Of a stretch of DNA of 64,000 bases, positions 36,119 to 46,858 are shown in pieces. This DNA comes from an uncultured Bacteroidota bacterium (GTDB lineage Bacteria > Bacteroidota > Rhodothermia > Rhodothermales > Salinibacteraceae), in the NCBI GenBank assembly GCA_913055845.1, contig CAJXKO010000001.1, positions 1 to 64,000 on the forward strand. Direction: 5' to 3'. A program made the translations under genes and the position numbers. The notes under the pieces are model-generated. The model made no database searches and had not been told where the DNA came from. It worked only from the letters and a program-made list of their open reading frames with translations. The stretch's first letter is position 1. Every line of letters starts with the position of its first letter.

Positions 36119-36583
36119 ATGCCTGAAATTCGCCGTGCCAGCACTGAGGCCGACCTGGATGCCGCTCGGCGTCTGTTCCGGTCGTACGCCGAGAGCCTGG
36201 ACTTCGAGCTCGACTTCCAGGATTTTGAGGCGGAACTGGCGGCGCTCCCCGGCCCGTACGCGTCTCCCGACGGTGCAATTCTGCTGGCGGAAATCGACGG
36301 GGCGCCGGTCGGCATCGTGGCCGTGCAGCCGCTCGGCGACGATGCCTGCGAGATGAAGCGCCTCTACGTGACCCCTGACCACCGAAACCAGGGCATTGGC
36401 CGCGCCCTCGCGTCCGCCATCGTCGAGGAAGCCCGGACGCTCGGCTACGACGTGATGCGGCTCGACACCGTGGCGTCCATGACGGCCGCCCGACGTCTCT
36501 ACTGGTCCCTCGGGTTCGAAGAACGAGAGGCCTACTACCACAACCCGCTGGACGATGCCGTGTATATGGAGCGTCCCCTCTAG
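36119..36583 (+). CDS. GNAT-family N-acetyltransferase
   Basis: 154 residues from the ATG at 36119. Acetyl-CoA motif A is seen in 'MKRLYVTPDHRNQGIGRALASAIV' (V-x-x-x-xRxxGxGxA) with the usual preceding beta-strands ('ILLAEIDGAPVGIVAV'). The tail 'ARRLYWSLGFEEREAYYHNPL' is the common 'lone' GNAT ending. Substrate unknown. The upstream in-frame extension to 36014 is unconserved. Its stop is 14 bases before the DUF192 gene, so it likely begins a three-gene unit. Confidence 0.88.
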   Translation: MPEIRRASTEADLDAARRLFRSYAESLDFELDFQDFEAELAALPGPYASPDGAILLAEIDGAPVGIVAVQPLGDDACEMKRLYVTPDHRNQGIGRALASAIVEEARTLGYDVMRLDTVASMTAARRLYWSLGFEEREAYYHNPLDDAVYMERPL

Positions 36584-36599
36584 CCACAGCCGGTTCCCC

Positions 36600-37088
36600 A
36601 TGCGTTCCCTCTTGTTTTGTCTTTCTTTCACCCTCGCCATCCCGCTGCTGGCCGGGTGCACAGAAACCGGTGACCGGACCAGCACCGACGACCTGCGCAC
36701 GTTTCGGGACGAGGGCGTCCTGGCCTTTACCCAGCCAACTGGCGACACGCTCGCAACGATCACCATCGACGTGGCCGACACCGACGCGGAGCGACGGCGG
36801 GGGCTCATGCAGCAGCGGAGCCTCGGCTACGATCGGGGCATGCTCTTCGTGTTCGAGACCGTGGACCGCGGCAGTATGTGGATGAAAAACACGCCCCTGC
36901 CCCTCGACATTATCTTCGTGGCGCCGGACTCACAGATCATCAACATCACCCGCCGTACGACGCCCCTCTCGGAGGAGCAAATTACCCCCGAGGCGCCGCG
37001 CAAGTTCGTCGTGGAAGTCCGCGCCGGCTTTGCCGATCGCTTCGGCCTGACCGATAGCACCCGCGTCCGGTGGACCCACACGAACTAA
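36600..37088 (+). CDS. DUF192 lipoprotein, copy 1
   Basis: 162 residues from the ATG at 36600, with a lipoprotein signal: hydrophobic core then 'LLAGC' (Cys near residue 20). The DUF192 domain covers about 45-160: 'TITIDVADTDAERRRGLMQQ', 'GMLFVFETVDRGSMWMKNT', 'PLDIIFVAPDSQIINI', 'RKFVVEVRAGFADRFGL'. DUF192 proteins are small secreted or lipid-anchored proteins of unknown function with a compact beta fold. Directly followed by a paralogue. Confidence 0.88.
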   Translation: MRSLLFCLSFTLAIPLLAGCTETGDRTSTDDLRTFRDEGVLAFTQPTGDTLATITIDVADTDAERRRGLMQQRSLGYDRGMLFVFETVDRGSMWMKNTPLPLDIIFVAPDSQIINITRRTTPLSEEQITPEAPRKFVVEVRAGFADRFGLTDSTRVRWTHTN

Positions 37089-37091
37089 CTG

Positions 37092-37120
37092 CCTCGCCTC
37101 CCCTCGCCTCCCCTCGCCCC
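37092..37120. repeat. Ten-base tandem repeat between DUF192 genes
   Basis: cctcgcctcc is repeated twice with a shortened third copy (cctcgcccc) in the 32-base gap between the two DUF192 genes, ending immediately before the second ATG. A slippage-prone spacer that could tune translation of the second copy. Confidence 0.6.
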
Positions 37121-37648
37121 ATGGATGTCTCGCTGTCCCTCCGTCGCACCCTGTTTCTCACGACCCTAATCGGCACGGTGCTCGTCGGCAGCCTCGCCTG
37201 TGGCCGCTCGGGCGACTCGCCCTCGACGGACGCCGACGCGGACACGACGGGCCCCATTCCCTTTACTATAGAGGGCCGCCTCGCGTTCATTCAGGACGGC
37301 GACTCGACCGTCACCATCGACATCGAGATTGCCGACACGGACTCGGCCCGAGAGCGCGGCATGATGCAGCGCGAGGGATTCCCCAATGACCGGAGTGGAA
37401 TGCTCTTTCCATTCCAGAAGGAAGAGCCTCAGAGCTTTTGGATGTCGAACACGCCCGTCGCGCTCGACATCATTTTCGTTGACGCAGACTCGCAGATCGT
37501 GAACATCGCGAAGTACACCACGCCGTTCTCCTCCGAGAACTACCGCTCCGGCGAGCCGGCACAGTACGTAGTGGAGGTGCCCGCCGGTTTCGCGGACTCG
37601 CACGGGATATTGGAGGAAGACCGCATTCGGTGGCGGCGGCTGGACTGA
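37121..37648 (+). CDS. DUF192 lipoprotein, copy 2
   Basis: 175 residues from the ATG at 37121. Lipobox 'GSLAC' near residue 27 after a hydrophobic stretch; DUF192 domain follows with 'VTIDIEIADTDSARERGMMQ', 'GMLFPFQKEEPQSFWMSNT', 'VALDIIFVDADSQIVNI', 'AQYVVEVPAGFADSHGI'. Clear paralogue of the preceding gene with the same architecture, most likely a tandem duplication that has diverged. Convergent with the A-type Fe-S carrier gene. Confidence 0.88.
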   Translation: MDVSLSLRRTLFLTTLIGTVLVGSLACGRSGDSPSTDADADTTGPIPFTIEGRLAFIQDGDSTVTIDIEIADTDSARERGMMQREGFPNDRSGMLFPFQKEEPQSFWMSNTPVALDIIFVDADSQIVNIAKYTTPFSSENYRSGEPAQYVVEVPAGFADSHGILEEDRIRWRRLD

Positions 37649-37696: not shown

Positions 37697-38029
37697 TTAC
37701 ACCCCGAAAGACTCCCCGCACGCACACTCGCGAGAGGCCTGGGGATTGGAGAAGTGAAAGCCGTCCCCATTCAACCCGTCGGTGAAGTGCAATTCGGATC
37801 CGTCAAGGTAGAGGCGGCTCTTTTTGTCCAGTACCACCGTGATGCCGTCGTGCTCTTCAACCTTATCCTCCTCCTGCACGGTCGTCTCCCACCCGAGATC
37901 GTACGTGAGGCCCGAGCAGCCGCCCGGCACCACGGCCACGCGGAGAAGCGTCTCGTTGAGGTCCACGTCTTTGTTCAGCGCCACCGTCTCAATCTGATCG
38001 ACGGCCGCATCGGTCATCGTAATGGTCAT
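37697..38029 (-). CDS. A-type Fe-S carrier (SufA/IscA/ErpA family)
   Basis: Iron-sulfur cluster carrier that accepts clusters from SufBCD and passes them to apo-enzymes. 110 residues from the ATG at 38029. The three conserved cysteines are present: one in 'VVPGGCSGLTYDL' and two in 'SRECACGESFGV'. The upstream in-frame extension to 38365 is unconserved. It faces away from sufB with a 356-base shared intergenic region that contains a palindrome, so both may share regulation. SufA versus ErpA cannot be settled. Confidence 0.93.
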   Translation of the reverse strand: MTITMTDAAVDQIETVALNKDVDLNETLLRVAVVPGGCSGLTYDLGWETTVQEEDKVEEHDGITVVLDKKSRLYLDGSELHFTDGLNGDGFHFSNPQASRECACGESFGV

Positions 38030-38385
38030 GGCAGAACCAGCGTTCGTGCAGGCATCCATCGGACCATTGAATACCGCCGCACAAAACCGGAGGTTTCTCC
38101 CAACCCGTCTCCCTCGCGCCGACGACCTTTCCCTCTTGCCCCCTCCCCGTACACCCGAGCCCACGGCGCCCCCCCGACCGTCAACTTCCCACGAAGATGT
38201 AACGCACCTTCCCCCGGAGGAACGACCCGTGCCCCCCCTTGTTGTAACCGCACGTTGACACAGAGAAAAGCGTAAACATCGGTTTACACTCGGGGCCATC
38301 ACTCGGCGCCCAAGAGCGGCCTCCCCCGAGAAACCGGTGCTCTCCATCCGCATCGGACCACGCACGAGATGACGAGGGACCGTTT
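38030..38385. other. Divergent control region, A-type carrier and sufB
   Basis: 356 bases with no supportable gene, flanked by divergently transcribed Fe-S genes. It holds a palindrome at 38272-38287 and a TTGACA at 38255-38260 without a well-spaced -10/-7 box. No SufR-type CAAC-N6-GTTG or obvious IscR site was recognised. Confidence 0.5.
38272..38287. promoter_or_regulatory. Inverted repeat upstream of sufB (candidate operator)
   Basis: gtaaac (38272-38277), four bases atcg, gtttac (38282-38287): a perfect 6-4-6 inverted repeat about 100 bases before the sufB start. Its position in the carrier/sufB divergent region suggests control of Fe-S assembly. The binding protein is unknown. Confidence 0.45.
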
Positions 38386-39849
38386 ATGAGCACTTCCGAG
38401 ACCGAATACCTTAAGGGAAAGGCCAGCGAGGACTACAAGCACGGCTTTTACACCGACATCGAGACGGAAAAAGCGCCTAAGGGCCTCACCGAGGATGTCG
38501 TTCGCTACATTTCGCATCGTAAGGACGAGCCCGAGTGGCTTCTGAACTGGCGCCTGAAAGCCTTCCGCCACGTTCGTGACCGCATTGACAGCGGAGAGAC
38601 GATCGATTGGGCGCACCTCGACTACGAGGCGCCCAAGTTCGACGAGATTAGCTACTTTTCCGCCCCGAAGGACAAGGCCAGCTACGACAGCCTCGACGAC
38701 GTGCCCGACGAGATTCTGGAGACGTTCGAGCGGCTCGGCATTCCGCTGGAAGAGCAGAAGGCGCTCACCGGCGTGGCCGTCGACGCCGTCATGGATAGCG
38801 TCTCGGTGGCCACTACGTTCAAGGAGAAGCTGAAGGAGAAGGGTGTGATCTTCAAGTCCTTCGGCGAGGCCGCTCGCGACCACCCCGAGATCGTACGGGA
38901 GTACATGGGCACGGTCGTCCCGTACACCGACAACCTGTACGCCGCTCTCAATTCGGCAGTCTTCAGCGACGGGTCGTTCGTGTACGTGCCGGAGGGCGTG
39001 ACCTGCCCGATGGAGCTGTCCACCTACTTTCGCATCAACGAGGCGGGCACCGGTCAGTTTGAGCGCACACTCATTGTCGCCGAGCCGGGCGCCTACGTGA
39101 GCTACCTGGAGGGCTGTACCGCACCGATGCGCAAGGAGAACCAGCTCCACGCAGCCGTGGTGGAGCTCATCGCCCACGAGGACGCGGAGATTAAGTACTC
39201 CACGATCCAAAACTGGTACCCGGGCGACCCGGACACCGGTGAGGGCGGTGTGTACAACCTCGTCACGAAGCGCGGCCTCTGCAAGGGCGACAACTCCAAG
39301 ATCAGCTGGACCCAGCTGGAAACCGGCTCGGCCGTCACCCAGAAGTACCCGAGTGTCATCCTGGCCGGCGACGACTCGGTCGGCGAGTTCTACTCGGTGG
39401 CCTTCACGAAGGGGCACCAGCAGGCCGATACGGGGACGAAGATGCAGCACATCGGGAAGAACACAAAGAGCACCATCATCTCGAAGGGCATCTCGGCCGA
39501 CGTGGCGGACAACAGCTACCGTGGCCAGGTAAAGGTGAGCAAGAATGCCGACAACGCCCGCAACTTCTCGCAGTGCGACTCGATGCTACTCGGGCCCGAC
39601 TGCGGCGCACACACCTACCCCTACATCGAGAGCAACAACCCTACGGCTCAGATCGAGCACGAGGCGACCACCTCGAAGGTCGGCGACGACCAGATGTTCT
39701 ACTGTCACCAGCGCGGCCTCGGTGAGGAGGAAGCCCTGAAGCTGATCGTAAACGGCTTCTGCCAGGAGGTTCTCCAGGAGCTCCCGATGGAATTCGCCGT
39801 GGAGGCGAAGGAGCTCCTCGACATTGAGCTCGAAGGGTCGGTCGGCTAG
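38386..39849 (+). CDS. sufB: Fe-S cluster scaffold protein SufB
   Basis: Central scaffold of the SUF machine, where clusters are built on the SufB2C2 or SufBC2D complex. 487 residues, normal length. Family marks: 'SYDSLDDVPDEILETFERLGIP', 'DGSFVYVPEGVTCPMELSTYFRI', 'LEGCTAPMRKENQLHAAVVEL', and the functional cysteine in 'NFSQCDSMLLGPDCGAHTYPY', followed by the Glu/His-rich 'IEHEATTSKVGDDQMFYCHQRG'. First gene of sufBCDSE-sufT. Confidence 0.98.
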   Translation: MSTSETEYLKGKASEDYKHGFYTDIETEKAPKGLTEDVVRYISHRKDEPEWLLNWRLKAFRHVRDRIDSGETIDWAHLDYEAPKFDEISYFSAPKDKASYDSLDDVPDEILETFERLGIPLEEQKALTGVAVDAVMDSVSVATTFKEKLKEKGVIFKSFGEAARDHPEIVREYMGTVVPYTDNLYAALNSAVFSDGSFVYVPEGVTCPMELSTYFRINEAGTGQFERTLIVAEPGAYVSYLEGCTAPMRKENQLHAAVVELIAHEDAEIKYSTIQNWYPGDPDTGEGGVYNLVTKRGLCKGDNSKISWTQLETGSAVTQKYPSVILAGDDSVGEFYSVAFTKGHQQADTGTKMQHIGKNTKSTIISKGISADVADNSYRGQVKVSKNADNARNFSQCDSMLLGPDCGAHTYPYIESNNPTAQIEHEATTSKVGDDQMFYCHQRGLGEEEALKLIVNGFCQEVLQELPMEFAVEAKELLDIELEGSVG

Positions 39850-39963: not shown

Positions 39964-40737
39964 ATGGCACTCCTAGAAATCGAAAATCTGCACGTTGGCG
40001 TCGAAGGTGAAGACATTCACATCCTCAAGGGCGTGGATCTCACGTTGGACACGGGCGACCTCCACGCCATCATGGGGCCGAACGGCTCCGGCAAGAGCAC
40101 GCTCGCCTCGGTGATTGCCGGGCGTGAGGAGTACGAAGTCCTTGATGGAGAAATTCGCTACGACGGGGATGACCTGCTGGAACTGGAACCGGAAGAGCGC
40201 GCCGAGGAGGGAATCTTCCTCGCGTTTCAGTATCCGGTGGAGCTGCCCGGCGTGAGCATGACGAACTTCTTGAAGGAGGCCGTCAACGCTGTCCGTGAGG
40301 CGCGCGGCCAGGACGAGCTCTCTTCGGCCGAGTTCCTCCAGCAGATGCGCGAACGGGCCGACATGATGGGCCTCGACGCCGACCTTACGAAGCGGTCGGT
40401 CAACGAAGGCTTCTCTGGTGGCGAGAAGAAGCGCAACGAGATCTTCCAGCTTGCCATGCTGGAACCCCGACTCGCCATTCTCGACGAGACGGACTCCGGC
40501 CTTGACATTGACGCCCTCAAAAATGTGGCCGACGGCGTCAACAAGTTGCGCGACGAGGATCGCGGCTTCCTGGTCATCACCCACTACGAGCGCATTCTGC
40601 AGTACATCGTCCCCGACCGCATACACGTCATGATGGACGGGAAGGTGGTGCGCTCCGGCGACAAGGACCTCGCCCAGCAGCTTGAGGAGCACGGCTACGA
40701 ATGGATCCGTGAAGAAGCGGCGGCGGCCGCGGCATAA
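39964..40737 (+). CDS. sufC: Fe-S assembly ATPase SufC
   Basis: ABC-type cytoplasmic ATPase of the SUF complex; drives structural change in SufB/SufD. 257 residues. Walker A 'GPNGSGKSTLASVIAG', SufC-type signature 'SGGEKKRNEIFQLAML', Walker B 'LAILDETDSGLDIDAL', and H-loop 'VITHYERIL'. No membrane partner, as expected. Gap to sufB 114 bases with a hairpin, gap to sufD 96 bases. Confidence 0.98.
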   Translation: MALLEIENLHVGVEGEDIHILKGVDLTLDTGDLHAIMGPNGSGKSTLASVIAGREEYEVLDGEIRYDGDDLLELEPEERAEEGIFLAFQYPVELPGVSMTNFLKEAVNAVREARGQDELSSAEFLQQMRERADMMGLDADLTKRSVNEGFSGGEKKRNEIFQLAMLEPRLAILDETDSGLDIDALKNVADGVNKLRDEDRGFLVITHYERILQYIVPDRIHVMMDGKVVRSGDKDLAQQLEEHGYEWIREEAAAAAA

Positions 40738-40833
40738 CCCTCTGGCCGCATTCTAGGGCCGCGGGATGACCGTCGCGCCCCCCCGTCCTCCAGCCGCATC
40801 CTTCTCCCGATTACACACCCAACGCTTCTCATC

Positions 40834-42174
40834 ATGAGCACCGCACTCGACACGGATGTTCGCCCCGAAGATCGGTTCATCTCAGCCTTTGAGGTGAACC
40901 ACGGCCAGGCGCTAAACGGGACGAACGCCTCCATCGCCCAACAGCGCGAGGACGCCATCGAGCGCTTCTCAGCGCTCGGCATCCCAACCAACAGCCTGGA
41001 GGCCTGGAAGTACACCGACATCTCGAAGATCATCGACCGGCCGTACGCCCTCCCCCTTGCCCCCGAGGTCCCGTCGGTCGACCCGAGCGACATCGCGCCC
41101 TTCACCATCGACGACATGGACGCACACCGCGTTGTGCTCGTCAACGGCCGCGTTGATCCGTCGCTCTCTGATCTCGGCGACCTGCCGTCGGGCGTCGTCG
41201 TAAGCAGCCTTACCCAGGCTGGCGACGCGCACCCCGACATTGTGGAGGCCCACTACGGCCAGTACGCAGACTTCGAAGACGAGGCGCTTACGGCCCTCAA
41301 CACCGCCTTCGTACAGGATGGCGCGTTCGTCTACGTGCCCTCCGGCACCGTCGTGGAAAAACCAATCTTCTTCCTTCACGTGACGGCCGGGCAGGAGGAT
41401 CTCTTTCTCCAACCGCGCCATCTGTTCGTGGTCGAAGACGGCGCCATCGCCCGCATCGTGGAGGCCCAGCACTCACTGACCGACGCCCACACGTTCACCA
41501 ACACGGTGACCGAGACCTTCGTCGGCGAACGGGCCAACCTTGAGCACTACCTCGTTCAGGACGAAGGCCCCAACGCCTCCCAGGTGCACACCCGCGCCGG
41601 ACAACAGAAAGACGACAGCGTGTACTCGACCAACACGGTTACCTTCAGCGGCGAGGTGGTGCGCAACAACGCCAACATTGAGGCGGACGGCTCCTTCTGC
41701 GAGTCGAACCTTTACGGCCTCTGCATCGGCAAAGAGGACATGCACGTGGACAATCACACGCAGATGAACCATGTGCAGCCGGACTGCAACAGCAATGAGC
41801 TGTACAAGCACGTTCTCAACGACGAATCCACCGCCGTCTTTAACGGCAAGGTGCTGGTCACACGTGGGTCCCAGCGGATCGACGCCTACCAGCAGAACGA
41901 CACCATCGTTCTGACCCACGACGCGAACATCTACACCAAGCCGGAACTTGAAATTTACGCCGACGACGTGGTGTGCAGCCACGGGGCCACGACGGGGCAG
42001 GTCGACGAGGAGGGCGTCTTCTATCTCCGCTCTCGCGGCCTCTCGGAGCGCCGCGCCCGCATCCTCATGCTGCAGGCCTTCTGCGATGAGGTCCTGAGCG
42101 AGTACAAGATCGACGCGCTGCGCAACCACATCACCGAGAAAATCCGGCAGCGCTTCGCCAACTACTTCTCATAA
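40834..42174 (+). CDS. sufD: Fe-S cluster assembly protein SufD
   Basis: SufB paralogue that completes the SufBC2D scaffold and helps acquire iron. 446 residues; N-terminal helical part, then a beta-helix core ('[21 protein letters not shown]', 'NAFVQ'-like strands), and the conserved '[20 protein letters not shown]' and '[18 protein letters not shown]' segments, ending in '[20 protein letters not shown]', typical of SufD. Reads in one run with sufC and sufS. Confidence 0.97.
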
Positions 42175-42195
42175 CGCACGGAGGCATGGATGCGC

Positions 42196-42235
42196 GGATG
42201 AATGGAGGCGGTCCCCCCTATGCCTCCATGCGTCC
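42196..42235. repeat. Intergenic hairpin between sufD and sufS
   Basis: ggatgaatggaggc (42196-42209) pairs with gcctccatgcgtcc (42222-42235): 12 of 14 Watson-Crick plus one wobble, 12-base loop. The left side holds an extra related copy (ggaggcatggatgc from 42180), so the arms are built from a degenerate short repeat. Confidence 0.5.
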
Positions 42236-42259
42236 ATTTTCCCCAAGCCCACAACCGCT

Positions 42260-43516
42260 ATGCCTGCGACGACACACCCTACTCCCGACACGGCTTCGTT
42301 CGATGCCGATGCGTTCCGTGCGGACTTTCCCGCACTCGCGCAAGATGTGTACGAAGACACGCCCCTGGCATACCTCGACAACGCGGCCACCTCGCAGAAG
42401 CCAACCCCAGTGATTGAGCGGCTGGACCGCTTTTACCGGAAGGAGAACAGCAATGTGCACCGGGGTGTGCACCGGCTCAGTCAGGACGCGACGGAGGAAT
42501 ACGAGGAGGCCCGCGCCTCTCTCTCCCACTTCCTGAACGCGCCGCACCCGGACCAGATCATCTTTACGCGGGGGACGACGGAGGGGCTGAACCTCATCTC
42601 CTCTACGTTCGGGCAAATGGTGGTCGGGGAGGGCGACGAGATCCTCCTAACGGAGATGGAGCACCACTCCAACATCGTCCCTTGGCAGATGCTGGCCGAG
42701 CAGGTGGGAGCATCGATTGAGGTACTGCCCGTCACGGACCGCGGCGAATTGCGGATGGACCTGCTTCCGGCAATGCTCACCGACGACACGGCGCTCGTGG
42801 CCGTGAGCCACGTCTCCAATACGTTGGGCACCATCAACCCGATGGAAGCTCTCATCGATGAGGCCCACGCGGAAGGAGTGCCGGTGGTGGTGGACGGAGC
42901 GCAGTCGGCCCCGCACTTGCCCGTGGACGTGCAGGCGCTCGACGCAGACTTCTATGTCTTCTCGGGACACAAGATGTTCGGCCCCACGGGCATCGGCGTG
43001 TGCTACGGGAAACGTGAGCACCTGGAGGCGATGCCCCCCTACCAGGGCGGCGGCGACATGATCGACCAAGTCTCGTTTGAAAAGACGACCTACGACGGCC
43101 TGCCCCATAAATTTGAGGCGGGCACTCCGAACATCGCCGACGCCGTCGCGCTCGGGACAGCCGCCGAATACATGATGGCGTTGGACTGGGACGCCGTGCA
43201 GGCCCACGAGGATGCCCTCCTGGAGTACGCGACCGAGCAGGTCGACGCCGTGGAGGGGACCCGAGTCATCGGCACGGCCCCCGATAAGACCAGCGTGCTC
43301 TCGTTCGTCTTCGACGACATCCATCCCTACGACGCCGGGACGGTGCTGGACCGCGAAGGCGTAGCCGTCCGCACGGGCCACCACTGCACGCAGCCGCTCC
43401 TCAGTCGCTACGGCCTTCCCGGCACCATTCGGGCCTCGTTCGCGGCCTACAATACGCGGACAGACGTGGATCGTCTCCTCCAAGGCCTTGAAAAGGTCCA
43501 GCGCATGTTCGGGTGA
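42260..43516 (+). CDS. sufS: Cysteine desulfurase SufS
   Basis: PLP enzyme that takes sulfur from cysteine as a persulfide. 418 residues, class II (SufS) by length. PLP Lys in '[19 protein letters not shown]'; the active-site Cys in '[16 protein letters not shown]'; His and Asp contacts in '[11 protein letters not shown]' and '[15 protein letters not shown]'. The persulfide is passed to SufE, encoded next. Starts 85 bases after sufD. Confidence 0.98.
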
Positions 43517-43599
43517 CGGAGCCTGGCGGTAACCTCTGCCCGCCAGGCCCGTATGTAGCACTGATGAAACGCTCTTCGCAACGACGCGCACTGTCTTCC

Positions 43600-44031
43600 A
43601 TGTCCACCTCGAACACGGTCTCGGATCGTGCCGAACAGATTGTTGACGAGTTTTCGCTGTTCGACGACTGGATGAGCCGGTACGAGTACCTTATCGAGCT
43701 TGGCGATGACATTCCCCTGCTCGATGAGGAGCAGAAGACGGACGACACCTACATTCACGGGTGCCAGTCCGACGTCTGGATTCAGTCGGAGCTCGACGAG
43801 GACGACCGAGTGCTCCACTTTCAGGGCGACAGTAATGCCAAAATAACGAAAGGGCTCGCGGCTCTCATCATCCGGGTGCTCGACGAGCAACCGCCCGACG
43901 CGGTCGCGAATGCGGACTTTGACTTTCTCGACGACATTGGGCTCCACGATCACCTGAGCTCGCAGCGCAATAACGGGCTCAAGGCCATGATCGAGGCAGT
44001 CCGGGAGCGCGCCCAGGCAAATCGGAACTGA
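43600..44031 (+). CDS. sufE: Sulfur acceptor protein SufE
   Basis: Receives persulfide sulfur from SufS and delivers it to SufB. 143 residues from the ATG at 43600 ('MSTSNTVSDRAEQIVDEF'), the length normal for the family; an in-frame ATG at 43564 and a GTG at 43513 overlapping the sufS stop are less likely. The sulfur-carrying Cys lies in 'TYIHGCQSDVWIQ'. Gap to sufS about 80 bases; ends before a hairpin at 44041. Confidence 0.95.
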   Translation: MSTSNTVSDRAEQIVDEFSLFDDWMSRYEYLIELGDDIPLLDEEQKTDDTYIHGCQSDVWIQSELDEDDRVLHFQGDSNAKITKGLAALIIRVLDEQPPDAVANADFDFLDDIGLHDHLSSQRNNGLKAMIEAVRERAQANRN

Positions 44032-44040
44032 GGAGTGAGG

Positions 44041-44083
44041 CGTGAAACGTGAGGCCTGAGGGATTGAAATCTCACGTGTCACG
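44041..44083. repeat. 13-bp inverted repeat between sufE and sufT
   Basis: cgtgaaacgtgag (44041-44053) and ctcacgtgtcacg (44071-44083) pair over 12 of 13 positions with a 17-base loop. The arms contain a repeated acgtgag-type unit. Not followed by a clear T-run, so it may end or protect the sufBCDSE message. Confidence 0.55.
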
Positions 44084-44158
44084 ACTTGCACGACACTCGG
44101 CTCCTTCACGTGAGCCGACACACGTACAACACAATTCCCCACAATCCTTAACGACACG

Positions 44159-44620
44159 ATGAGTCCTTCAGGAGGTGCTATGCCCGGTGGAATGGGTGGA
44201 ATGGGCGGTATGCCCGGCGGGGCAGGCGGCGGTGCCGCCGACATCCCCGACGACAAAGAGCAGTCCGAAATTGAACTGCCGGAAACCATTCCAGACCACG
44301 TACAGGATACACCGGACGACGAGCTGTACCAGCGGGTCGTGGAGTCGCTCCGCGACATTTATGATCCCGAGATTCCGGTTAACATTTACGACCTCGGGTT
44401 GATCTACCACCTGGAGGTCGGCGACGATGGACACGTGGACGTACTCATGACCCTCACGGCCCCCAATTGCCCCGCGGCGGGCATCCTGCCCGGCCAGGCC
44501 GAAGACGCGGTGCGGGAGACGGAAGGGGTAACGAGCGTGAACCTAGAGATGACGTTCGAGCCCCCGTTCTCCCCCCAGATGATGTCCGAAGAGGCCCGCC
44601 TCGAACTTGGCTTCATGTAG
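44159..44620 (+). CDS. MIP18/DUF59 protein, SufT-like
   Basis: 153 residues. Residues about 1-30 are an unusual Gly/Met-rich stretch ('MPGGMGGMGGMPGGAGGG'); then a MIP18-type domain: 'VVESLRDIYDPEIPVNIYDLGL', 'VDVLMTLTAPNCPAAGILPGQ' with the conserved Cys, and the family end 'NLEMTFEPPFSPQMMSEEARLEL'. SufT-type proteins help Fe-S maturation of target enzymes in SUF-using bacteria. Its place right after sufE agrees with that. The N-terminal repeat is not part of the family core. Confidence 0.9.
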   Translation: MSPSGGAMPGGMGGMGGMPGGAGGGAADIPDDKEQSEIELPETIPDHVQDTPDDELYQRVVESLRDIYDPEIPVNIYDLGLIYHLEVGDDGHVDVLMTLTAPNCPAAGILPGQAEDAVRETEGVTSVNLEMTFEPPFSPQMMSEEARLELGFM

Positions 44621-44680
44621 CCCCGCGCCAATGCCGGATCGGTGCCCGACACCTCGACGGTCGTACCCTCCCTCTTAACG

Positions 44681-46858
44681 ATGAAACACGCCCGCACCAT
44701 TGCGATGGCCACGACGCTGCTCGCCGACGGGCGGGCCGACGACGTGGTAGCCATGGTGGAGCCGTTGCTCGACTCGGTGACGGCCCCGGCCGCCAACACG
44801 GGACAGCTCCTGCTCCGGGGACTGCTGGCGCGTGTGGAAGGGACTCACCGCGACCGTCCGGAGCGGGCGCTCGAGTTGCTGCCGAGGACCGACGACGTGT
44901 CGGATGCCTGCACGTGCGTGCGAGCTGAGGTTGCGCTCTGGCGGGGCTGGGCCCGTGCCCGACGCGCCCCCCGCATGGACGAGGCCTCTCGCGCCCTCCG
45001 TTTGCTCAAGGAGAGCCAGGAATTGTTCGTGTCGATCTGCGACCCGGGAGGACGCTGCTGGGCCTTGCTCGGTCAAGCCCAGGCCTACGCGGCCCTTGAA
45101 GAATACGGGTTGATGCGACGAATGCTCGACGACGCGGAGGGCCTTTCGAGCCGCCTCCAAGACACCCAGGCCGAGCGGTGGCTCCACGAGCTTTCAATTT
45201 CAGCCCTCCGGTGTGCCGACGAGTACGAGCGTGCAGCCGAGCATCTGACGGCACTTCAGTCGATCGCCGACTCCTGGTCCGACCGACGCGTGGATGCACA
45301 CGCTGCCGCTCACACGGCGGCCCTCCGGCACGACCGGGAGGCCGAGCCGGCCGCTGTGCTCGACGCCGCCGACAAGGCCCTCTCCCGACTTCGCCCCAGC
45401 ACGGCCGCGGCTCTTCCCGCGGTGCTCCGTGCTGTAGACGCCCGCACGAGGGCCCTGTGCCGGCAGGGCGCATGGGACCGTGCCCTCGAGGGAATCGACG
45501 ACATCGAGTCGTCTCTTTCCGAAGAGAAGACTGCGGGCGCCTTCCTTCAGATGCTTCGAGCCCGCGTCGCGCTCCGTCGCGGCGAGCCAGAACGTGCTCA
45601 CGCGCTGCTCGACGCGACGTTCGACGAATCACTGCCGTCCCTCCCTGGCATTCCCCGCTCCCGCATCGCGCTGCTGTACGGCGCGATCTTCGACGCTCAG
45701 AACCGCCCCGAGCAGGCCCGGCGGTGGCAGCGACGCGCCCACCGGATCGCGCAGGAAAGCGGTCACCACTCTAATCAGCGACGCGCCGCTCAGGCCCTCC
45801 CGACTCGCACCGAGAGCCCCCCCGAGGTCTCCCCCACCGATCCTCTCATGCTCGTCGACGGCCTCGTGGCCGAGAGTCGCGAGATGCAGGCAGTGGCCGA
45901 GACGATCCGGCAGGTTCAGCCGAGCCACAGTCCAGTGCTCGTCACCGGCGAGGGCGGGACCGGCAAACGTCTCGTGGCACGGGCCCTACACGCAACGAGC
46001 ACACGAGCGAACGGGCCGCTGGAGACAATCTCCTGCGATCCGACGCAGGCCGGCGAGTCCCTGGAGACACGACTCTTTGGGGACGACCGAACCGAGGCCC
46101 CGAGATCCGGCGCTCTCCAAGCAGCCGACGGGGGGACGCTCATCGTCGAGGACGTGGATGCCCTTCCTCAACCGCTCCAATCGCTGCTTCTCGACGTTCT
46201 CGACACGGGACGCCTTGCGGCCCGAAGTGACTTCCACAAACCGGTAGACGTCCGTGTAATCGCCACGACGACCGCCGATCTTGACGCTCGTGTTCAGGAA
46301 GATCGGTTTCGGCGAGCCCTTCGAGACCGCCTCCGCGTGATCTCTCTGCACGTACCACCGCTTCGCGAGCGGCGTCCCGACATCCCGCTTCTCGCCCGCT
46401 ACTTTCTAGACCAACTCCGGCCAACCGACTCGGCGCTCGTCTCCATTACGCAGCCGGCTATGGAGGCGCTTCTCCGCTACAACTGGCCCGGCAACGTGCG
46501 CCAGCTCCGAAACGAGATTGAACGCGCCCTGGTGCACGTGCAGAGCGAACCGGCCCCCACGATCGGCCTTGATATTCTAAGCGATGCGATCGTGGAGGGC
46601 GCCCGAAAGAGCCGCTCGCCCCAAACGGCCCAGGAGAACCCCGACGCCATCCTGGAGCCCGACCAAACGCTCAGCGATGTCCTCTCGCGCACCGAGAAGG
46701 CCGTGATTGAGCGGGTGTTGGGGGCCTGCGACGGCCAAGTGACTGCATCGGCAGATGTGCTCGGGCTCACCCGTCAGGGCTTGTACAAAAAGATGAAGCG
46801 TCTCGACATCGACGCTTCTTCATTTCAGTCCTCCTCCGAACCAACCCCTACGGCTTGA
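44681..46858 (+). CDS. AAA+/Fis regulator without GAFTGA, TPR-like sensor
   Basis: 725 residues from the ATG at 44681 (a GTG at 44642 would add 13). Residues about 1-400 are helical TPR-like repeats with cysteines at 77, 79, 120 and 126 ('DACTCV', 'ICDPGGRCW'). Residues about 415-640 resemble the sigma-54 activator AAA+ domain: Walker A 'GEGGTGKR', sensor 'VRVIATTTADLDARV', arginine-finger region 'FRRALRDRL', 'PPLRERRPDIPLL', 'YNWPGNVRQLRNEI'. The sigma-54-contacting GAFTGA loop is absent (the slot reads 'LFGDDRTEAPRSGALQAAD'), and Walker B is 'LIVEDV', not the usual 'LFLDEI'. C-terminus is a Fis-type helix-turn-helix ('RVLGACDGQVTASADVLGL'). Like TyrR-class proteins it probably acts without sigma-54. 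It starts 60 bases after sufT on the same strand. Confidence 0.85.
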   Translation: MKHARTIAMATTLLADGRADDVVAMVEPLLDSVTAPAANTGQLLLRGLLARVEGTHRDRPERALELLPRTDDVSDACTCVRAEVALWRGWARARRAPRMDEASRALRLLKESQELFVSICDPGGRCWALLGQAQAYAALEEYGLMRRMLDDAEGLSSRLQDTQAERWLHELSISALRCADEYERAAEHLTALQSIADSWSDRRVDAHAAAHTAALRHDREAEPAAVLDAADKALSRLRPSTAAALPAVLRAVDARTRALCRQGAWDRALEGIDDIESSLSEEKTAGAFLQMLRARVALRRGEPERAHALLDATFDESLPSLPGIPRSRIALLYGAIFDAQNRPEQARRWQRRAHRIAQESGHHSNQRRAAQALPTRTESPPEVSPTDPLMLVDGLVAESREMQAVAETIRQVQPSHSPVLVTGEGGTGKRLVARALHATSTRANGPLETISCDPTQAGESLETRLFGDDRTEAPRSGALQAADGGTLIVEDVDALPQPLQSLLLDVLDTGRLAARSDFHKPVDVRVIATTTADLDARVQEDRFRRALRDRLRVISLHVPPLRERRPDIPLLARYFLDQLRPTDSALVSITQPAMEALLRYNWPGNVRQLRNEIERALVHVQSEPAPTIGLDILSDAIVEGARKSRSPQTAQENPDAILEPDQTLSDVLSRTEKAVIERVLGACDGQVTASADVLGLTRQGLYKKMKRLDIDASSFQSSSEPTPTA

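Follow-up and report, generated by a model that had tools for sequence, protein, structure and literature searches.

The suf locus and the domains of REG

The window, as we call the whole stretch of 64,000 nucleotides that was analysed, carries a forward-strand gene cluster in the order sufBCDSE-T. The proposed target operon opens with sufB (38386-39849), which is followed by sufC, sufD, sufS, sufE and sufT (39964-44620), and a divergent iscA/HesB-type gene on the reverse strand (37697-38029) borders the operator-bearing intergenic region 38030-38385. Two adjacent small proteins with mutual similarity (36555-37088 and 37070-37648) are found upstream of iscA in many relatives. The cluster is closed by the gene studied here, REG (44681-46858, forward strand), which starts with ATG, encodes 725 aa and begins 60 bases after its upstream neighbor, a SUF_assoc/SufT-type protein ending at 44620; the preliminary description of this DNA had given the same spacing. 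An alternative in-frame GTG is located at 44642, yet every orthologue aligns from the start at 44681.

Pfam searches of REG yielded Sigma54_activat (1.7e-32), AAA_lid_14, HTH_8 (2.9e-9) and a weak TPR_12 match. Four parts were delimited, all on the forward strand: the N-terminal half (residues 1-372, 44681-45796), helical and TPR-like by alignment and AlphaFold2; the AAA+ domain (residues 393-560, 45857-46360), with the Walker A sequence GEGGTGK retained and a Walker B reading LIVEDV; the AAA+ lid (residues 561-650, 46361-46630), with WPGNVRQLRNE retained; and the Fis-type HTH (residues 660-712, 46658-46816), delimited by Pfam and alignment. The AlphaFold2 model, made with 27 orthologues, had a mean pLDDT of 87.7 and was all-helical over residues 4-372, in agreement with the TPR-like half read earlier from the sequence; the TPR_12 match was weak and was found in 13 of the 27 orthologues. 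All 27 carried the combination that defines the bEBP superfamily (Sigma54_activat AAA+, AAA lid and Fis-type HTH), and RQGLxKKxxRL of the HTH was invariant among them.

Inside the AAA+ domain, the L1 loop (about 46073-46135) is shortened and lacks GAFTGA; LFGDDRTEAPRSGALQAADGGTLIVEDV pairs with the GAFTGA region of ZraR in the alignment. The hhhhDE form of Walker B expected of a sigma-54 activator is also missing. Pfam and the ZraR alignment thus confirmed a sigma-54 activator plan without GAFTGA and with LIVEDV at Walker B, as first described. Misreading or misalignment of the loop was ruled out by the same alignment and by five other aligned AAA+ proteins of this genome, which retain GAFTGA or a near form.

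Orthologues of REG and the four cysteines

We searched 245 genomes of the class, 114 of them in the order Rhodothermales, with a profile built from the first 150 residues of the protein. REG was present as a single copy in 36/114 genomes of the order (genome G039 added a second, weak match at 2.7e-4), and the profile had no match in the 131 members of the class outside the order. The gene lies between sufT and a glyoxalase-like gene in every genome where the flank is sequenced, so the expectation that orthologues would stay beside suf genes held wherever REG is present. Orthologues are usually about 910-1005 aa long, the longest exceeding the window protein by ~270 residues. In an R. marinus-type model, this extra part adds further helices of TPR-like type and, at residues 523-640, an a/b domain; neither the window protein nor its nearest relative has it. 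The strand order of the a/b domain may be read as GAF-like, a reading made on the model; Pfam gave no match for this domain, and fold searches with the whole chain returned AAA+ matches only. REG has shrunk further, to 528-535 aa, in the S. ruber/S. altiplanensis group; at four loci of this group (L069, L070, L073 and L074), the protein of ~530 aa lacks the counterpart of window residues ~172-366. Parallel short forms of 493-510 aa occur in families f8 and f6 (G025).

Cysteines at 77, 79, 120 and 126 occur in the window protein as described, but the metal or Fe-S site proposed on them was not borne out by the alignment, in which they vary. Conservation of Cys77 and Cys79 (CxC) is limited to genus g1. 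A cysteine at position 120 is shared by the window protein and its five nearest relatives alone, with His, Leu, Tyr, Ala or Ser in the other sequences, and position 126 varies between Cys, Ser, Tyr, Gly and other residues. The family therefore has no conserved cluster-ligating cysteines, and a four-cysteine site was ruled out as a family feature. The preliminary description had staked its case on orthologues keeping both the cysteines and the suf neighborhood: the first failed and the second held. Elsewhere in the same genome, on contig C13, an Rrf2-family regulator (L129, 1300-1887) has an IscR-like cysteine cluster, CX6CX5C, although its score falls below the IscR equivalog cut-off. The genome may therefore possess a further cluster-sensing regulator.

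Loss of GAFTGA and constraint on the AAA+ domain

HEKGAFTGA and TLFLDEI are intact in REG of Rhodothermus (f11), f4 (G019) and f7 (G028), whereas GAFTGA is missing from all members of f1 and from f5 (G020), f8 and f10. Because Rhodothermus, f4 and f7 retain GAFTGA and LFLDE, the loss is secondary. It occurred at least twice, since f8 diverges before the GAFTGA-bearing families on the SufBCD tree and its loss is separate from that of f1, f5 and f10. Within f1, the Walker B pair reads ED, GD, DD, HD, RN, KA, HR, HQ or RQ, and the Walker A lysine is gone in genus g4. Loss of rpoN was considered as a cause and rejected: RpoN was present in 77/77 good genomes, including the source genome.

The dN/dS of the AAA+ domain was 0.03-0.05 in Rhodothermus, where it is among the most constrained parts of REG, and 0.12-0.18 in Salinibacter; the HTH stayed low at 0.01-0.15 and is the most constrained part in the Salinibacter lineage, with dS high and near saturation in several of these comparisons. 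By this measure, constraint on the AAA+ domain is several-fold weaker after the loss of GAFTGA, and the HTH remains strongly constrained.

The candidate operator upstream of sufB

A palindrome resembling the TyrR box, TGTAAAC-N4-GTTTACA, is shared upstream of sufB. In the window, candidate site 2, CGTAAACATCGGTTTACA (38271-38288), agrees with it at 13/14 positions, and the weaker candidate site 1, TGTAACCGCACGTTGACA (38243-38260), lies 28 bp from site 2. The region 38030-38385, singled out earlier as the place to look, thus contains a likely operator. At least 10/12 TyrR-box positions were matched in 28/28 REG genomes scored, and at most 9/12 in 23/23 genomes without REG, among them genomes that lost REG inside REG-bearing clades (G058, G059 and G021, the last scored on an upstream stretch of just 159 bp). 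The presence of REG changed at least seven times on the tree, and all five well-supported independent pairs agreed with the operator, a number of pairs for which the p-value of a sign test cannot fall below 0.0625. By sequence, REG is accompanied by a TyrR-box-like operator.

The exact core occurred solely at suf in 18/23 genomes; the remaining five had no copy at all. A second exact core is present in six genomes (G065, G071, G074, G075, G077 and G029), a short way beyond iscA at its 3' side. It is separated from the sufB copy by ~550 bp, so that the two flank iscA; such paired copies could allow DNA looping. The window has no good copy at that place. When up to two mismatches were accepted, the source genome had just two palindrome matches, namely sites 1 (38243-38260) and 2 (38271-38288) ahead of sufB, and G067 and G063 likewise had only the two. 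A genome-wide regulon motif was ruled out, as the matches are confined to suf.

Another inverted repeat, TTTAGAYTNARTCTAAA, is present just upstream of sufB in f13, f6, f14 and f2, which mostly lack REG, and in f4, f7 and f8, which have REG or probably have it; examples are loci L123, L125, L094 and L102. It is absent from the sufB upstream regions of f1 and f11. Such a distribution points to an older regulator whose place REG took.

Promoter elements at sufB

Between the operator and sufB, a -24/-12-like site ranked in the top 5% against dinucleotide shuffles in 6/10 GAFTGA-bearing versus 0/26 GAFTGA-less genomes (G018 among the ten was classed by family, its REG contig being missing, and G031 among the 26 by operator). 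Fisher's test gave 1e-4, uncorrected for kinship and with only one to two independent evolutionary pairs behind it. Every Rhodothermus sequence whose upstream region is available has GGCA[CT]-N5-[CT]TTG at the same place; the sigma-54-like sites are weak in some of them, where -12 reads TTGT and not TTGC. In the window, no -24/-12 promoter was detected at sufB (best score p=0.69).

The window has a promoter-like element, GGAACG-N16-GTTGTA (38219-38246, forward strand), whose function is putative. Box 1 overlaps its downstream half and box 2 lies beyond it. GGAACG was found upstream of sufB in 45/61 regions against 9.5% expected, irrespective of REG, and GTTGTA or a similar sequence follows it by 16-18 bases in many of these regions, including those of genomes without REG. 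The GGAACG-N16-18-GTTGTA-like element looks like an ECF-type promoter.

Proposed mechanism and alternative explanations

The sequences support the descent of REG, its synteny, the loss of the loop, the co-occurrence and uniqueness of the operator and the loss of the -24/-12 site. We infer from them the binding of REG to the boxes, the sign of regulation and the existence of a signal. REG is likely a dedicated, single-target suf regulator, once a sigma-54 activator, now independent of sigma-54 and probably a repressor in the Salinibacter lineage. Of the preliminary proposal, a dedicated SUF regulator that does not use sigma-54 in this lineage and is undescribed in the papers found has stood, and cluster sensing by four cysteines has not.

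REG would descend from a conventional sigma-54 enhancer-binding protein, and its Fis-type HTH would bind two tandem palindromes, 28 bp apart, upstream of sufB. In the ancestral, Rhodothermus-like form (TPR, GAF-like domain, GAFTGA-bearing AAA+ and HTH), the boxes would serve as an enhancer for a -24/-12 promoter situated between them and sufB. In the Salinibacter lineage, GAFTGA, the Walker B signature and the -24/-12 promoter have disappeared while the HTH and boxes persisted, and the subgroup of the window has lost the GAF-like domain as well. There, REG is probably a DNA-bound oligomer that binds nucleotide without remodelling and represses the GGAACG-N16-GTTGTA promoter, the remaining TPR part receiving a signal or partner. 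Repression is the most likely sign in this lineage because the putative promoter-like element runs, with its downstream half, into box 1, the one feature from which the sign is read.

The same boxes might instead let REG activate a sigma-70 or ECF-type sufB promoter, as GAFTGA-less R. capsulatus NtrC or VpsR do. GAFTGA-less bEBPs at sigma-70 promoters are on record (PMC10274813) and the boxes are conserved in all REG genomes, but box 1 on the downstream half of GGAACG-N16-GTTGTA and box 2 past it is a placement more usual for repression, and we regard activation as rather unlikely. Continued cooperation with sigma-54 through an altered L1 loop is given very little credence. Although rpoN is present and most of Walker A, the R-finger region and the lid is retained, L1 is short and shows no conservation, relatives carry HD, RN, KA, HR or RQ in a degraded Walker B, Walker A is lost in g4, and the -24/-12 site is missing upstream of sufB in 26/26. 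Sensing of cluster status by an Fe-S or metal cluster on Cys77/79/120/126 is equally hard to credit: the window protein has all four and g1 keeps the CxC, but even close relatives that share the operator have other residues in place of Cys120 and Cys126, and the wider family shows no cysteine pattern, so the alignment largely refutes it.

That the palindrome belongs to a different protein co-inherited with REG seems quite improbable. The pairing of REG with the boxes is known from sequence only; however, the two co-occur through at least seven changes, including losses nested in REG-bearing clades, the palindrome is similar to the TyrR box, the site of another bEBP, and no part of REG is under stronger constraint in the Salinibacter lineage than the HTH. 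Progressive deletion of the N-terminal half and degraded ATPase motifs in f1 might suggest a decaying, functionless gene, but the frame is open in all relatives and dN/dS is well below 1 in every domain, which refutes decay for the HTH and leaves it a negligible chance for the gene as a whole.

With one locus and one operator, the family may offer a natural series of stages from sigma-54 activator to pseudo-ATPase repressor, in which loop, cognate promoter and sensor domain were lost while operator and HTH persisted, and may also represent a previously unknown class of AAA+-based dedicated SUF regulators; we put the chances of this at about even. As GAFTGA-bearing and GAFTGA-less orthologues share the locus and operator, the sigma-54-to-sigma-70-type conversion is directly testable, and protein and promoter swaps between Rhodothermus and Salinibacter provide a way to do so.

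Comparison with known systems

The suf regulators known to us are Rrf2, SufR or Fur-type proteins. No description of a bEBP-derived dedicated suf regulator was found in the open-licence papers searched, nor anything relevant on suf with sigma-54 or with Salinibacter.

E. coli TyrR, like REG, is an AAA+/Fis-type protein of the bEBP superfamily with strong and weak boxes in tandem. Its operator is TGTAAAN6TTTACA. The TyrR-box consensus of A. brasilense is reported as TGTAACG-N4-CTTTACA (PMC6375630). Unlike TyrR, REG has a TPR-like N-terminal half in place of ACT/PAS, and its target is suf and not aromatic amino-acid genes. The TyrR equivalog model scored 132.5 bits on REG against a cut-off of 576, over the AAA+ part only, so REG is not a TyrR; a TyrR structure was not among the PDB matches of the REG HTH at E up to 10.

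In Caulobacter and Rhodobacter capsulatus, NtrC is reported to have lost GAFTGA with a switch to sigma-70 promoters, as is VpsR (PMC10274813). The GAFTGA-less NtrC resembles REG as a bEBP whose L1 lost GAFTGA within a lineage, and it acts at sigma-70 promoters; for REG, we infer action at a non-sigma-54 promoter from the missing GAFTGA and the missing -24/-12 site. Those NtrC proteins are response regulators with wide regulons, whereas REG has no receiver domain and apparently one target. VpsR and NtrX (PDB 7v2b, 5m7n), among the best structural and sequence matches of the REG AAA+ part, share the shortened L1, and Walker B is degraded in VpsR; unlike REG, both have a receiver-type N-terminal domain and other targets, and VpsR binds c-di-GMP. 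IscR, SufR, RirA and RisR, as proposed for REG, control suf genes adjoining them or from upstream of the operon, but they belong to the Rrf2 or SufR-type winged-helix proteins and carry Fe-S clusters, whereas REG belongs to the AAA+ proteins and has no conserved site for a cluster.
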